DNA of 28,510 bases from positions 1 through 28,510 of the IMG/VR virus record IMGVR_UViG_3300024346_000386; one strand, given 5' to 3'. Source of the DNA: a virus. A program made the translations under genes and the position numbers. Below, in pieces: positions 11,472-17,402 of the stretch. Positions within the stretch are counted from its first letter, which is position 1. Every line of letters begins with the position of its first letter. The notes below the pieces were generated by a model. The model was not told the origin of the DNA and searched no databases. It worked only from the letters and a program-made list of their open reading frames with translations.

Positions 11472-12676
11472 TTCTTGAAATGTTTTAGCGTGTAATCTTG
11501 CTTCTTCATTACGGTGTTGTAAATATCCGATTCAATACCACCCTCCGCCATTATAAACCAAACTTCGGGCGGTGTTGTGCGGTCTTTAGTGGTTGCCCTA
11601 TCTCGCCCTTGGATATACGATAAACTGCTGAACTCGATATTCAAATACACCAAACAGTCAGCGCTCGATAAATTAACCCCTTCGCGGCTGCTGCGAATTT
11701 GCCCAACAAAAGTAGCGGTCGGGTCTGCATTAAACGCTTCGGGTGTACTTACGCAATTAGGTATTAACTCTTTCACTATGTCCATCTCGGCTTGGTACAC
11801 GGTAAAGATGGCAATCTTCCTACCTTCAAACTTTAGTTTGATGGCTTTTACTTTGGTATTATCTACAATGTGAACCCCATTCTCGGTAATCACCGTACCG
11901 CTGCATAATTGGTGAACCTTTGACTGCATTTTAACGCCAGTGTCGGCAAGTATCACATCGGTATTACCTTCATAAATCCCGTTATTCATTACCGCTTTAG
12001 CCATCGCGTACGTGCTTGGCTTCATTTGAACGACAAGAATGTCCTCAATAATCTGCTGCGTGAACCCAGCTTGCTGTTGGGTGTAGGTTAGCATAATCGG
12101 CTTGACATACATTGCAATATCCTTCCAACGTGCATCGGAGTAGTCGTTCGTGGTTTGCCCTGTGCCTATGTATTTCACTCCGACATTTACAAATACTTTA
12201 GCCCACTTGTAGAAGTTGCCGTACTGCGAAAATGGGCTTAATGGATGCACCCAAAATTGATGGAATAATTGGCTAAAACTTTCTGGACTTGGCGTTCCAC
12301 TAAGCAGAATTAGGTAGGTGTTTTGGTCTATAATCGCCCGTAATTGTTTAGCCCTTAGCGATGGCTTTGGAAACGCTCCAATACAATGCGCTTCATCTAT
12401 TACGATGTACTTAAACCGTTCTTTTACCTTGTGCAAACTTTCATAATTCACACATTCCACATCGACCCCGATTAACTCCGCATCTTTTTGGATGCTGGGT
12501 ATTGCTTTCTTTTTGGTTACAAATAGGCATCTATTCGCGCCTACCTTTTGCAGCGTTGCAAATGCGGTCAAAGTTTTGCCTGTCCTTACCTCCATCGCTA
12601 AGTATACTATCTTGCGCTTAGATAGTATTTCAGCGGCTTGGTTACTTATGTCGGTTTGGTAATCTCTAAGCTGCAT
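11444..12676 (-). CDS. SF2 DEAD/SNF2-like helicase
   Basis: With start ATG 12676 the protein has 410 residues. Motif Q-like LRDYQTDISNQ opens the protein. MEVRTGKT (28-35) is the Walker A, VIDEAH (about 92-97) Walker B/DEAH, LLSGTP (about 124-129) motif III, and QGRDRATTKDRTTP near the C-terminus motif VI. The P-loop is a variant seen in phage SF2 enzymes. I chose 12676 because it overlaps the prim-pol stop by 11 bp and drops 16 residues that would cover the preceding gene. It likely unwinds or remodels DNA during phage replication with the VRR-NUC nuclease. Confidence 0.85.
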   Translation of the reverse strand: MQLRDYQTDISNQAAEILSKRKIVYLAMEVRTGKTLTAFATLQKVGANRCLFVTKKKAIPSIQKDAELIGVDVECVNYESLHKVKERFKYIVIDEAHCIGAFPKPSLRAKQLRAIIDQNTYLILLSGTPSPESFSQLFHQFWVHPLSPFSQYGNFYKWAKVFVNVGVKYIGTGQTTNDYSDARWKDIAMYVKPIMLTYTQQQAGFTQQIIEDILVVQMKPSTYAMAKAVMNNGIYEGNTDVILADTGVKMQSKVHQLCSGTVITENGVHIVDNTKVKAIKLKFEGRKIAIFTVYQAEMDIVKELIPNCVSTPEAFNADPTATFVGQIRSSREGVNLSSADCLVYLNIEFSSLSYIQGRDRATTKDRTTPPEVWFIMAEGGIESDIYNTVMKKQDYTLKHFKKWKAPTSES

Positions 12677-14936
12677 TCTCAAACTCTTTAATCCAGTTGA
12701 TAATGGTTTGGCGCGATACTGCAAGCAACTCGGCTGCGGAGGTTCTATTAAGGTCGGTGTCAGTCCTCCACATTTGCTTGCATCGTTCTTTAGGTGTTGC
12801 CGCTCCTTTCACATTAGCCGCTTCGCGTATTACGCTGTATGCCATACTATCCACTTTCACCTTTTTACTCATTGTGATGAAGTAGTCAGATAATCTCTCG
12901 GCTTTTATCATAGTAGCCGCGTCAATAGGTCGGGTTAATTCTTCGCCATTTGCATAGGCATCAATAACGGATAAAAGTAAAGCGAAACGTGGCACGTAGG
13001 TTTTTTGCTTTGGTAGCATGGACTTAGTAAATTCGCTTTCATTATCGCTATTCTGCATGATGGTAATCTTATCATTGATGCGTTTCCACTCCGCCTTAGC
13101 CCCCTTATCCATAGGTATTAAATGGGGTTTTATTTCTCGTTCTTCATCAAATACAATAAGGTTGTTTTTTATATGCGCATGAAGTTCCCCTATGTAATTA
13201 TGATACCAGTCTATTAGTTCTTCGCTCAATTCATTCTCGTTGTACATTTCCACTTGAATGTCAGGATAGCAAAGTAGCATCCTATCACTAAATCCATTGT
13301 CCCGATATTCGTCTGTAAAAATTTGATTCAATACAGCGGGTTGTATGCCCCCAAGTACAGGAATAATTGGGCTGTGAACGTAAGTGTTTTTAACCGTCTT
13401 TCTATTCAGTGCTGCTGGTTGGTTGCTAAAAGTAGAAAGCCAAAACTCCAAATCAGAACCCGCCCTATATTTATTCATGTCCTTAATCCAGCCCGCTAAT
13501 TCATCTTTAAAAACGCCTACCGCATTCGGGTTTTCTTCATGCAATTCTACAAGGGCTTCCAGCGTTACATCGTTAACAATAAACTGCTTTTTTATTGGAC
13601 ATTGAACCTCTGGACGTTGCTCTTTTTCCTTCTTGCTTAGTTTGTCGTATTCGTCCCACGCTTTAAATCTCTTTTGATATTCGCGTATTTCTCGGCTGTT
13701 GGCTTGAATTAGCGGCCTAATTACGTTGTTTATTGATGGAGACTTCCCAACTCCAGCTTTACCCACTACCGTTACCCAAATAGTACAGCATTCATCCCAC
13801 CCCTTTTTGACTTGTATCTTCATGCTATTACCTACCAAAATAGATAGCATCCAAAGCAATCCAGCCCCCATGTAATCTACCGAACTATCTAAGGTGCGGT
13901 TGCATTCAAGTAAGTAATTTTGAATTTCAGTTGGGTAAATGTCTAAAGGAAAAGATAGCTTTTCAATAGTTGGCTTTTCTATTGTCGCAATTTCGGGCTG
14001 TGGTAATTTAACCCTATCACCGTAACCGCTTGCATACAACTCTTTAGCGGCTGTACTCATATTGCCGTTGTGGTACTTGTAGGCAAATAATGAAAAAGGG
14101 CTTAATAGCTTTTCGTTTGGGTATGCCGTCCCTGTGCTGAATAAGTACATACATCCACTATCCTTAAACACGTAGCCCGAATGTGCGGAGGTTGCCCCGT
14201 GTCGCTTTATTACCGTCTTACTTGCAAGGTTTCTTATCACCTTAAATTCATCGCCTACTACATCAAAAACAGTATGCCTTTGGTTGTAATCTTGCCAAGG
14301 GCTTACTCCAGTTTCTTTGTCTTTTTTTGGTTGCTCAACTTGTTGCACCTCCACGCGTTCATCGTACATCCTACAAATTGCAAGGATAGTATTATGTTCT
14401 TCATCGCTTAGGTATTGGATAGCTGTATAGTCTAATCCGTTGGTGCATTCATCGTACAATAAAGCATAACCACCAGTCCCACGGCTTTCGATTAAGGCTT
14501 GTGTTTTTCCACTACTTTCAGATTTTAAACCAGTTAATACAGGTACTGCAATCTTTTCGTTACCCATCATTAACCGCGTTCGATAAGTTAAATGATACCC
14601 AAAATTCATAGTCTTATGTACAGCTACTTTCTTATCAAACCCGTCTACATTGTCCCGTACAAAAGCTATAAACTCGGTAAAGAATGCAGCCCGTAATTCC
14701 ATCGGCAGCACCTTTAAATCAATATCAATAACTAAAATGTCATTGTAACCAGTTGGATAACCGTATCGAAACGCTTTAGGATTCTGTATATTCTTTTCTA
14801 ACTCCGCAGCCGTCCACGGGGTTGTCATTAACGCTTTCCAACTGTGGCATGGTAGTTTGTCCTCACTTGCTACAAGTAAAGAATACCCAGCCGCAAGTAA
14901 TGACTTGCCCTTTTCTAATCTTATGTGCTTGCTCAT
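12666..14936 (-). CDS. Prim-pol / DUF3987 primase-helicase
   Basis: This is a 756-residue replication protein. The N-terminal prim-pol domain has NDILVIDIDLK (DxD at 71-73), the FGYHLTYR strand and ESRGTGGY (150-157). A zinc-ribbon-like or linker region covers about 215-310. The DUF3987 ATPase has GKAGVGKS (392-399), FIVNDVTLEALVEL, GVFKDELAGWI and the later GGIQPAVLNQIF and FSDRMLLCYPD. A C-terminal helix-turn-helix (SAAELLAVSRQTIINWIKEF) ends the protein. It should prime and unwind phage DNA. It overlaps the upstream gene (ATGA) and the helicase downstream. Confidence 0.85.
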   Translation of the reverse strand: MSKHIRLEKGKSLLAAGYSLLVASEDKLPCHSWKALMTTPWTAAELEKNIQNPKAFRYGYPTGYNDILVIDIDLKVLPMELRAAFFTEFIAFVRDNVDGFDKKVAVHKTMNFGYHLTYRTRLMMGNEKIAVPVLTGLKSESSGKTQALIESRGTGGYALLYDECTNGLDYTAIQYLSDEEHNTILAICRMYDERVEVQQVEQPKKDKETGVSPWQDYNQRHTVFDVVGDEFKVIRNLASKTVIKRHGATSAHSGYVFKDSGCMYLFSTGTAYPNEKLLSPFSLFAYKYHNGNMSTAAKELYASGYGDRVKLPQPEIATIEKPTIEKLSFPLDIYPTEIQNYLLECNRTLDSSVDYMGAGLLWMLSILVGNSMKIQVKKGWDECCTIWVTVVGKAGVGKSPSINNVIRPLIQANSREIREYQKRFKAWDEYDKLSKKEKEQRPEVQCPIKKQFIVNDVTLEALVELHEENPNAVGVFKDELAGWIKDMNKYRAGSDLEFWLSTFSNQPAALNRKTVKNTYVHSPIIPVLGGIQPAVLNQIFTDEYRDNGFSDRMLLCYPDIQVEMYNENELSEELIDWYHNYIGELHAHIKNNLIVFDEEREIKPHLIPMDKGAKAEWKRINDKITIMQNSDNESEFTKSMLPKQKTYVPRFALLLSVIDAYANGEELTRPIDAATMIKAERLSDYFITMSKKVKVDSMAYSVIREAANVKGAATPKERCKQMWRTDTDLNRTSAAELLAVSRQTIINWIKEFENAA

Positions 14937-15481
14937 ATTCCTTTTACTTCAATAGTTTTTACGGCAACTTTTAATGCTTCATAAAACGTCCTACGTTCGG
15001 CATCACCACTAAACTGTATTTCTATTAAATCAGAATCTACTCCGTTAATTGACATTGCTGTGCATGAATCATTTTTTAAGGTCAACTTTACAAATCCTCC
15101 ATGTCCAGCGTCACCTCCTTGCACACCTGTATCTTCAACTATTACCGTTAGTATATTACAATCGGTAAAAGTTTCTTCTACTATTGTATTTTTATCTGTG
15201 GACATCCATGCAGCCATCCAAACCTCTTTAGGCGTTTGCTTTAGTTGCCACAACCCCGACAGTAGATGTATAAATAAACCGTTGGCAAACTTTTTTATTT
15301 CGGGTATATCTATTTGTGCGCACTTTTCAAAATCTTCATAATCTTCATACTTACGTGCCATTTTGGTTTCCTTAATAACCAATTCCATTAACTCATTAAA
15401 GGATATTTCAGCTTGCTTCAAGTCGGAAAACCAAACTGATTCATTAAAAAGCGCATACAAATCTTCGTTAATCTCTTTCAT
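14933..15481 (-). CDS. Hypothetical protein (182 aa), first gene of replication operon
   Basis: The function is not recognised. The N-terminal half is helical (LYALFNESVWFSDLKQAE, FANGLFIHLLSGLWQLKQ). The C-terminal half is beta-rich, with a Gly-rich GVQGGDAGHGGFVKLTLKND segment and IEIQFSGDAERRTFYEALK. It is the first gene behind the structured leader at 15487-15583 and directly precedes the prim-pol, so it could be a replication accessory protein or the target of the leader control. Its ATG follows an A-rich leader, UUGUAAAAAAAUG. Confidence 0.65.
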   Translation of the reverse strand: MKEINEDLYALFNESVWFSDLKQAEISFNELMELVIKETKMARKYEDYEDFEKCAQIDIPEIKKFANGLFIHLLSGLWQLKQTPKEVWMAAWMSTDKNTIVEETFTDCNILTVIVEDTGVQGGDAGHGGFVKLTLKNDSCTAMSINGVDSDLIEIQFSGDAERRTFYEALKVAVKTIEVKGI

Positions 15482-15486
15482 TTTTT

Positions 15487-15583
15487 TACAATAAAAAAAC
15501 CCAGCCGAGTTTGGAGTAGCAGCTCCTCCCTCGAATGGGTTAATAAGTTCTTTTTTGTTTATCGGTCTGCTACCCGATGGAAC
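15487..15583 (-). ncRNA. Kissing-loop leader or small RNA ending in terminator
   Basis: Downstream of the promoter, the transcript folds into two hairpins. Hairpin 1 is AUCGG/CCGAU (15578-15561) with the 8-nt loop GUAGCAGA. Hairpin 2 has the outer stem AACCCA/UGGGUU (15541-15498), inner CGAG/CUCG and GGAG/CUCC stems, and the apical loop CUGCUA. GUAGCAG in loop 1 and CUGCUAC at loop 2 are perfectly complementary over 7 nt. Hairpin 2 is followed by seven U, a typical intrinsic terminator, and then by the start codon at 15481. It may be a terminated RNA of about 90 nt or a regulated leader. Structure was predicted by eye. Confidence 0.65.
15496..15541 (-). terminator. Intrinsic terminator inside the leader RNA
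   Basis: The minus strand has AACCCA, inner CGAG and GGAG arms, and the pairing strands CTCC, CTCG and TGGGTT, followed by T7 (15499-15493). It lies only ~12-18 bp before the ATG at 15481, so the replication operon requires read-through or antitermination at this point. It also forms part of the kissing-loop leader. Confidence 0.6.
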
Positions 15584-15588
15584 GGCTA

Positions 15589-15619
15589 CAAATATACAAG
15601 TATTTTTGATTAAAACAAA
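15589..15619 (-). promoter_or_regulatory. Bacteroidetes-type promoter of replication operon
   Basis: The minus strand reads TTTG (15619-15616), a 19-nt spacer (15615-15597), then TATATTTG (15596-15589). This exactly matches the Bacteroidetes sigma-ABfr consensus TTTG-N19-TAnnTTTG. The start of transcription should fall near 15583. The TACTGTAAA repeat array begins 9 bp upstream of the -33 element, well placed for an activator or repressor. Confidence 0.8.
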
Positions 15620-15627
15620 AAAAAATA

Positions 15628-15876
15628 TACTGTAAACCTACTGTAAAGCAATTTTACACCTACTTTACACTAAAAAATCAATGTTTATGCGGGCTGTGGA
15701 AGGTTTTACTGTAAAATTTTACACCCGAGCGAAAATTTTAGAATTTTTTTTTTGCCTTTTTTATTTTCATAATCCAACTTTACAGTAAAATTTTACAGTA
15801 AACCTTTGTCAAAGCCGCGCCAATGCTATAAAGTTACTGTAAAGTGCTGCCAAAATCTACTGTAAAGACTTTACAC
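15628..15876. repeat. TACTGTAAA / TTTACAC repeat array, candidate origin or operator array
   Basis: Direct TACTGTAAA copies lie at 15628, 15639, 15707, 15835 and 15858, and inverted TTTACAGTA copies at 15779 and 15792. TTTACAC units lie at 15653, 15664, 15718 and 15870; two are preceded by T to give TTTTACACC, an 8-of-9 match to a DnaA box (TTWTNCACA). Several are spaced 11 bp (one helical turn), and the core TTTACWGTAAA is palindromic. A strongly AT-rich stretch (about 15731-15772) lies between the clusters. This fits iterons of a phage replication origin, or operators for the adjacent winged-helix proteins. Confidence 0.7.
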
Positions 15877-15884
15877 CTACCAAA

Positions 15885-16378: not shown

Positions 16379-17052
16379 TAGAACATAGTTATTTGATTGG
16401 ATTCACTTTTAGTAATTATGTTCCGGGCGGTGTTGAATATGGTTAGGCCAGCTTCATAATCTACAAGGTTTCTGCCTATTTTAACTAGATTTTGTTCGCC
16501 TTTATAACTTGTTAAATCAATTTTGTGAAATTTACAAAGTTCTTTTAACTCGTTTTTAACTTGTGAAATTGCAAATCGTCTATCTCCTAAATCACTTGGT
16601 AAATTAAAGTTAGTCCAATATAAATGTCTACCTCTTTTTTTTGCTGGTATTAATGGATCATAGTATGGTATAACATTTTCAACTACATATTTCCCGGTAC
16701 GATAATAATGCTGCAGAAACAAAATTTCTTGATATAATTTCATATCGGGATAAATAGCTTCTGTTGCCGTGTCATAATTTGAACTACTCCAATATCTTGC
16801 CCTGCTATGACTTGGACAAGGCGGTGAACTCCAAATAAAATCAAACTCTTTGTAGTGGTCTAATAAGTATTGATGTGCATCTGCAACTATTACCGTATCA
16901 TTTGGAAATCTTTCTTGATATAGCCTTGAAAGTTCGGGGTCTAATTCAACCGCAGTTACATCGCAGTCAGTCCATTTGTAACGATTGCCGCCTAAGCAAG
17001 CATAAAGGTTTAGCACCTTAAACTTCCGTATTATTTCTGCTCTATCTCCCAT
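16378..17052 (-). CDS. Compact cytosine-C5 DNA methyltransferase
   Basis: The 224-residue protein has motif I KVLNLYACLGGNRYKW (12-27), VTAVELDPE (32-40), motif IV FIWSSPPCPSHSR with the catalytic Cys at 79, and motif VI KYVVENVIPYY with ENV at 125-127. A short end (IGRNLVDYEAGLTIFNTA) resembles motif X. It is about 100 residues shorter than typical restriction-modification C5 enzymes and has no nuclease neighbour, so it is an orphan methyltransferase. Likely uses are protection from host restriction or marking phage DNA. The sequence between motifs VI and X is AT-richer than its neighbours. Confidence 0.8.
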   Translation of the reverse strand: MGDRAEIIRKFKVLNLYACLGGNRYKWTDCDVTAVELDPELSRLYQERFPNDTVIVADAHQYLLDHYKEFDFIWSSPPCPSHSRARYWSSSNYDTATEAIYPDMKLYQEILFLQHYYRTGKYVVENVIPYYDPLIPAKKRGRHLYWTNFNLPSDLGDRRFAISQVKNELKELCKFHKIDLTSYKGEQNLVKIGRNLVDYEAGLTIFNTARNIITKSESNQITMF

Positions 17053-17402
17053 TCCTTTGCCAGCTTTACTATTGTTTCAATTTGATGCTTATACTTTGGC
17101 TCGATTGATATATACCCCCTCGCTTGCCGTACGTTGTGGATTATTGTAGCATGGGTTCTATTTAGCAACTTACCCATATCCAAATAAGTAGATTGGTTAA
17201 TGTAAGTGTAGATTACGTAGGCTATTTGCTCCCGACATTTTACCACGTGGGGAAGGTTCGACTTTCTTATTATCTGCTCCCACTCAATTTGGTGGACTTG
17301 CATGGCCGCAATACATAGCCCCTCCACACTTACATCGGGCAGGAATTTACGCTCACTTAGCCGTTGTTTAATGGCTGCCAGTTGTTCTGCTGTCATCTTC
17401 AT
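17031..17402 (-). CDS. Stand-alone DnaA domain IV-like protein
   Basis: The 123-residue protein has a helical N-terminus and the sequence CREQIAYVIYTYINQSTYLD, then MGKLLNRTHATIIHNVRQAR (76-95). This resembles the DnaA domain IV signature (an xLGRDHTTVLHA-like helix-turn-helix) that reads the DnaA box. The AAA+ module is absent, so it cannot melt DNA alone; it may guide host or phage replication proteins or compete with host DnaA. DnaA-box-like TTTTACACC units lie in the 15628-15876 array. It overlaps the methyltransferase start by 22 bp. Confidence 0.75.
   Translation of the reverse strand: MKMTAEQLAAIKQRLSERKFLPDVSVEGLCIAAMQVHQIEWEQIIRKSNLPHVVKCREQIAYVIYTYINQSTYLDMGKLLNRTHATIIHNVRQARGYISIEPKYKHQIETIVKLAKEWEIEQK

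Follow-up and report, generated by a model that had tools for sequence, protein, structure and literature searches.

The packaging RNA of phage phi29 carries two loops that remain complementary while their sequences change between phages, the pairing being intermolecular and taking place in the packaging motor. The leader RNA described here resembles it in having loops that change yet stay complementary, and differs from it in being the leader of an mRNA. P4 CI RNA and c4 RNA are small RNAs derived from the leader of a phage replication or antirepressor operon; they contain complementary segments and act in trans in prophage immunity, in elements bearing an integrase, and, unlike our leader, they have no pair formed by a promoter-proximal hairpin loop and a terminator loop. 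Kissing-loop control of a terminator is already known in riboswitches: in the guanidine-IV riboswitch, the loop of a 5' hairpin kisses that of the terminator hairpin, which hinders the terminator stem from being completed and results in read-through (PMC11611296). The present leader shares with it a 5' hairpin loop complementary to the loop of a terminator hairpin, recognised here by comparing sequences, and the competition between kissing loop and full terminator stem that controls read-through there is what we propose here; the difference is that guanidine promotes the pairing in the riboswitch (PMC11611296), whereas in our leaders the loops vary freely and phage replication genes lie downstream. 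The putL and putR of phage HK022 are likewise short two-hairpin leaders right after an early phage promoter, but no loop-loop pairing has been described for them, they target distant terminators and they have no built-in terminator (PMC9378689); the likeness to put suggested in the initial annotation holds for position and number of hairpins, and for nothing further. In the available text on IsrK of Gifsy-1 (PMC4825925), one phage promoter and a terminator yield a short RNA and a read-through mRNA, an arrangement in which we infer a corresponding short RNA for our leader; that text describes no self-complementary loop pair, and the short RNA of IsrK activates translation of the read-through mRNA.

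A literature search outside subscription titles did not find such a phage leader. Rfam (4227 families) gave no match at the gathering score for the leader analysed here or for those of five relatives (L004, L005, L007, L009 and L086), the best sub-threshold match being a Phe leader, which scored 19.7 bits where the gathering score is 55; neither the guanidine-IV riboswitch nor another riboswitch family in Rfam was matched, a conserved ligand-binding sequence is lacking, and the loops vary. The leader family of Bacteroidota-phage replication operons is apparently undescribed, and what is new, as far as could be checked, is a freely recoded loop pair heading phage replication operons.

The leader was first noticed in an IMG/VR virus record of 28,510 bp, the whole of which we call the window and whose main gene blocks are on the minus strand. 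The initial annotation proposed a Bacteroidetes promoter followed by a two-hairpin leader that opens a replication operon, and both proposals were borne out, with all elements on the minus strand (Table 1). The promoter has the layout TTTG-N19-TATATTTG and agrees with the published Bacteroidota consensus of -33 TTTG and -7 TAnnTTTG (PMC7366714). Both hairpins, HP1 and HP2, are contained in the predicted minimum-energy fold of the 97 nt (z -2.98; one of 200 shuffles was not beaten) and are joined by an A-rich linker. HP2 reads ACCCAUUCGAGGGAGGAG[CUGCUA]CUCCAAACUCGGCUGGGU, its apical part being GGAG[CUGCUA]CUCC, and it was rightly taken to resemble an intrinsic terminator, with a stem and then U7 just before the first gene; such a GC-rich hairpin plus U tract between promoter and first gene is present in the window and not in all relatives. 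The complementarity of the loops had been given as seven bases: six base pairs (UAGCAG/CUGCUA) can form within the loops, and the seventh takes a base of the HP2 stem, where one pair must be opened. The U tract had been placed about 12 bp before the first replication gene; the distance to the ATG is indeed 11 nt, but the first ORF encodes 182 aa without a known family and the replication gene comes second. An outer helix around HP1 is possible, weak in the window and reading AGUUAA/UUAACU in relatives (subfamily A1). The idea that the GGGAGGAG stretch of HP2 pairs with anti-Shine-Dalgarno RNA was rejected, because this stretch is not conserved and relatives have, for example, UGCGGAG.

Table 1. 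Positions in the window of the promoter, the leader and the first two operon genes
Feature	Position	Strand	Basis or remark
-33 element TTTG	15616-15619	-	sequence; consensus in PMC7366714
-7 element TATATTTG of leader promoter	15589-15596	-	sequence
HP1, AUCGG[GUAGCAGA]CCGAU	15561-15578	-	fold; stem covaries in relatives
HP1 loop GUAGCAGA, its UAGCAG pairing with HP2 loop	15566-15573	-	comparison with relatives
HP2 terminator hairpin: lower stem, 3x3 internal loop GGA/AAA, upper stem GGAG/CUCC	15499-15540	-	fold -19.4 kcal/mol; conserved in relatives
HP2 loop CUGCUA, complement of HP1 loop	15517-15522	-	compensatory changes in relatives
U7 tract 3' of HP2	15493-15499	-	sequence; last U 11 nt before ATG 15481
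Possible outer helix framing HP1, GUUC 15580-15583 / GAAC 15547-15550	15547-15583	-	sequence comparison
First operon gene, 182 aa, without Pfam or PHROG family	14933-15481	-	orthologues behind type A and type B leaders
DUF3987 primase-helicase, second operon gene	12666-14936	-	PF13148 9.1e-54, phrog_2373

The proposed loop-loop pairing is backed by compensatory changes in relatives: where one loop differs between viruses the other differs with it, and this shows the pairing to be important. Two tests that do not themselves select for complementarity were available. One was a loop-free pattern, GGAG-N6-CTCCAA-N3-10-GGTTTTTT, in which HP2 is fixed and its loop is left unconstrained. Among the 24 viral contigs matched, 17 have TAnnTTTG 67-80 nt upstream of the HP2 apex, and the free hexamer has its exact reverse complement 44-48 nt upstream in every one of these 17 promoter-linked contigs (L084/L085 and L237/L241 being near-duplicates among them) and in none of the seven matched contigs without a promoter box at the right distance. 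Seven loop pairs occur among the 17, following the form C-NNNN-A/U-NNNN-G. The other test started from the gene that follows the L121 leader, of which 15 orthologues were collected by protein alone. A leader with complementary loops precedes all 15, the loops, taken from the sequences wherever the automatic descriptor failed, being GUGAGAG/CUCUCAC in ten and UGAGGGA/UCCCUCA in five, and the HP2 stem is altered on both sides in this set.

Eleven leaders were also compared as gapless composites of both hairpins, positioned by the hairpins and by the HP2-loop complement; these composites were used for pair counting, because MAFFT had not aligned the subfamily loops correctly. Across the 11 distinct rows the pairing of the kissing helix is complete (100%), double changes occupy 22 cells, and the covariation score of the helix is 0.861 against 0.181 when shuffled (0/500) and at most 0.08 when slid; because the rows were placed by the HP2-loop complement, the independent support is the loop-free pattern test and not covariation alone. 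HP1 stems covary as well. When loops were paired within leaders, a match of at least 6 bp was found in 20 of 22 cases, against 5 of the 462 mismatched pairings between different leaders. Single compensatory swaps distinguish L140 (AUGCCG/CGGCAU) from L143 (AUGCAG/CUGCAU) and L111 (GCUCUAC/GUAGAGC) from L158 (GCACUAC/GUAGUGC), and compensatory changes are also present in the close pairs window/L012 and L227/L238. We do not claim diversifying selection on the loops; their variation is about that of the HP1 stem, and they are invariant in one orthologue set.

The primase of the window led to 80 viral loci. The leaders of L005 and L086 have loops identical to those of the window, and the leader can be regarded as a module, because in L086 neither the DNA upstream of it nor the gene downstream is related. 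L012 has the loops GUAGCCGU and CGGCUA, a double change from A-U to C-G with respect to the window, and the diverged leader of L009 has GUAGCCGA/CGGCUA. The initial annotation named homologous leaders lacking complementary loops as evidence that would count against its proposal; homologous leaders of the same type were found to keep the complementarity, often in recoded form, and other leader types, such as those of L013-L019, are without complementary loops. In L004 and L006, whose primases are 96% and 93% identical to that of the window, the DNA is about 91-94% identical up to the promoter, and at the transcription start the sequence switches to another leader, type B. This consists of HP1 and a three-way junction, and its pairings were taken directly from the sequences of L004, L006 and L007. 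The HP1 loop pairs with one arm (UAUCG/UGAUA in L004, UGACA/UGUCA in L006, UGACAG/CUGUCA in L007), and a single strand pairs with the other arm (CAUGAAG/CUUCAUG in L004 and L006, GAGCAAG/CUUGCUC in L007). The type B leader lies at about 4308-4458 in L004 and L006 and at 1276-1425 in L007, and both of its long-range loop pairings show compensatory changes.

A different leader with a terminator hairpin lies just 5' of the primase in L013, L014, L016, L017 and L018. The inner segment of this terminator (TATACGTTA; GCACGT in L018) is complementary to the segment between U tract and start codon (TAACGTATA, ACGTGC), suggesting an H-type pseudoknot.

To estimate the size of the family, we used descriptors anchored on the promoter. 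An early version found 13 leaders against 1 in five shuffles, and revealed the same architecture with wholly different loops in more phages. The final descriptor, comprising promoter, HP1, HP2 and U tract, gave 32 leaders with 22 pairing cores from 2895 promoter boxes, at least one of the 32 (L066) resembling chance, and the background was 0-2 per shuffle set with a mean of about 1; a promoter-free descriptor was dropped for its excess noise in coding DNA. The element is present in two cultured phages, Flavobacterium phage hemulen6-1 and Polaribacter phage P12002L, which were detected once the minimum HP1 stem was set to 4 and had been missed at 5 bp or more with strict or relaxed boxes. HP1 of hemulen6-1 is GUAG[AGUCGUCG]CUAC, pairing with GACGACGACC, and both are identical across 34 records of the hemulen6-1 group; the loops of P12002L, GGUCGUAG/CUACGACC, form 8 bp directly 5' of a gene annotated as primosomal protein. 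BLAST of the leaders against isolate phages and plasmids returned nothing relevant, because the leader sequence diverges.

The search was also extended to cellular genomes. The subfamily pattern found no leader copies in 84,980 bacterial and archaeal genomes, a single match in an Eubacteriales MAG being a chance terminator without promoter box or HP1, and a primase-alignment profile found no relatives in bacterial and archaeal genome contigs; because neither search yielded any, no prophage copies are known.

Judged by these sequence comparisons, many Bacteroidota viruses open the mRNA of their replication genes with the same predicted fold, and the genes behind it are of three unrelated kinds. 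DUF3987 primase-helicases follow the leader in the window, L009, L111, L140, L143, L158, L234 and L242; operons with an initiator and a Toprim primase/DnaB-type helicase in L227, L228, L229, L233 and L236 and behind the second leader of G008; and BT4734/VirE-like primases in L243 and L231. For part of these assignments the basis is resemblance to the query primase or a common N-terminal sequence, and not a separate family search. Initial scans with the 182-aa gene turned up no further relatives. The first gene of L005 and L012 corresponds to only the N-terminal 97 aa of the 182-aa protein (L005 4213-4503 versus window 14933-15481), and a separate ORF, nuclease-like, comes next.

Several other observations concern the surroundings of the operon. 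Dense ACTGTAAA/TTTACAGT repeats occupy about 250 nt upstream of the promoter in the window (15627-15880), and iteron blocks of other sequence (AGTGTACA, AGTGTGCAAA, GTGTAAAGT) are at the same place in other DUF3987 phages; Toprim/DnaB-type phages with the same leader have no such blocks. The repeats are possibly a replication origin or operators. A 123-aa protein at 17031-17402 of the window has a weak, below-cut-off match to the DnaA DNA-binding domain, and in Manatee Spring phage MW202828 a short protein annotated as dnaA is also upstream of the primase. Near the terminase genes, ORF translations inspected by eye include glycosyltransferase-like and acyltransferase-like ORFs (1832-2776 and 4372-6385), which are unusual within a packaging block.

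We propose, with our confidence evenly divided, that the leader is a cis-acting attenuator of transcription and that loop pairing sets the read-through into the replication genes. Comparison of members places HP1 directly at the transcription start, with a loop of 6-8 nt kept complementary to the apical loop of the second hairpin, and in most members this second hairpin is intrinsic-terminator-like and just 5' of the first gene. HP1 could capture the apical loop of HP2 as this loop emerges from RNA polymerase, at a moment when the terminator still lacks its 3' arm. The U tract ends 20-26 nt after the HP2 loop, a spacing that may give HP1 a short interval for this capture. The kissing complex, in which HP2 would have no more than its short upper stem, would then compete against the full terminator hairpin, and the balance would decide the share of polymerases that read through and the share that stop after about 95 nt. 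The conserved internal loop between the 4-bp upper stem and the lower stem may allow the upper stem to be retained while the lower stem is open. By analogy with the guanidine-IV riboswitch, loop pairing most likely favours read-through. Because the loops can vary freely in sequence, a loop-binding ligand is probably not what tips the balance. Linker lengths in several members permit loop pairing and a complete terminator stem together, so geometry alone does not make the two mutually exclusive (in this linker-length test, stem extension runs into A/U flanks), and the pairing could stabilise the terminator rather than oppose it.

A U tract and a short distance to the ATG are found in most members, but L173, L181, L102 and L144, with a weak U tract, also retain loop pairing, as do the type B leaders L004, L006 and L007, which have no U tract; because of this retention, termination may not be the common function. 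The same observation favours a 5'-UTR element for mRNA stability or translation, in which the U tract would be incidental and the kissing fold would protect the 5' end or present the A/U-rich start region. The fold ends 8-25 nt 5' of the start codon in most members, as such an element would allow, but most members also keep a GC-rich hairpin with U5-U9 that resembles a working terminator, and we regard this explanation as unlikely, though it deserves serious attention.

A terminated leader of about 95 nt would hold both complementary loops, and could pair in trans with nascent leaders of other copies or of superinfecting phages, thereby serving copy control or immunity in which the loop would encode the specificity. 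P4 CI RNA, c4 RNA and ColE1 RNA I are the models for such a reading. It would suit the conservation of the backbone while loops differ despite the same downstream gene (L227 versus L238), as well as the different loops on two leaders of one phage, found in L151, L233, G008-G010 and G013. The paired leaders are at 3597 (+) and 8642 (-) in L151 and at 2233 and 4812 in L233; further positions are L208 588 with L174, and L216 5949 and 16985. IsrK (PMC4825925) provides a phage example in which the terminated leader acts on the read-through form of its own transcript. Against this, diversifying selection would predict changing loops, and in ten L121-type orthologues the loops are invariant while the HP2 stem changes; pairing in cis is simpler, and prophage immunity in particular seems less likely, no tyrosine integrase having been found in 32 of the 33 leader-bearing contigs, many of which are fragments. 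We judge action in trans quite improbable. Its bolder form, in which the loops would be an exchangeable RNA incompatibility code and the ~95-nt leader would stop the replication operons of sibling or competing phages across unrelated replication modules, appears less probable again.

That the folded RNA stays on RNA polymerase and makes it ignore later terminators is a doubtful explanation to which we give little weight: two hairpins after an early promoter are found also in HK022 putL (PMC9378689), but no common loop-loop architecture or sequence is known, one hairpin of the leader is itself a predicted terminator, and Rfam gave no match. Intermolecular kissing into oligomers, as in phi29 packaging RNA or GOLLD/ROOL cages, is the least credible, for although each RNA has two self-complementary loops covarying between phages and phage RNA homo-oligomers formed through kissing loops are already known (PMC12286853), the linker is long enough for intramolecular pairing in many members, the RNA is located in an mRNA 5' UTR, and the phage has terminase subunits.

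The leader represents a compact RNA device that recurs at the point where these phages commit to replication, whichever replication proteins they use. RNA-based control in Bacteroidota phages is, to our knowledge, poorly understood. The mechanism is directly testable because the loop pair can be exchanged freely, cultured phages carry the element, and the leader loop pairs could become orthogonal transcription switches.
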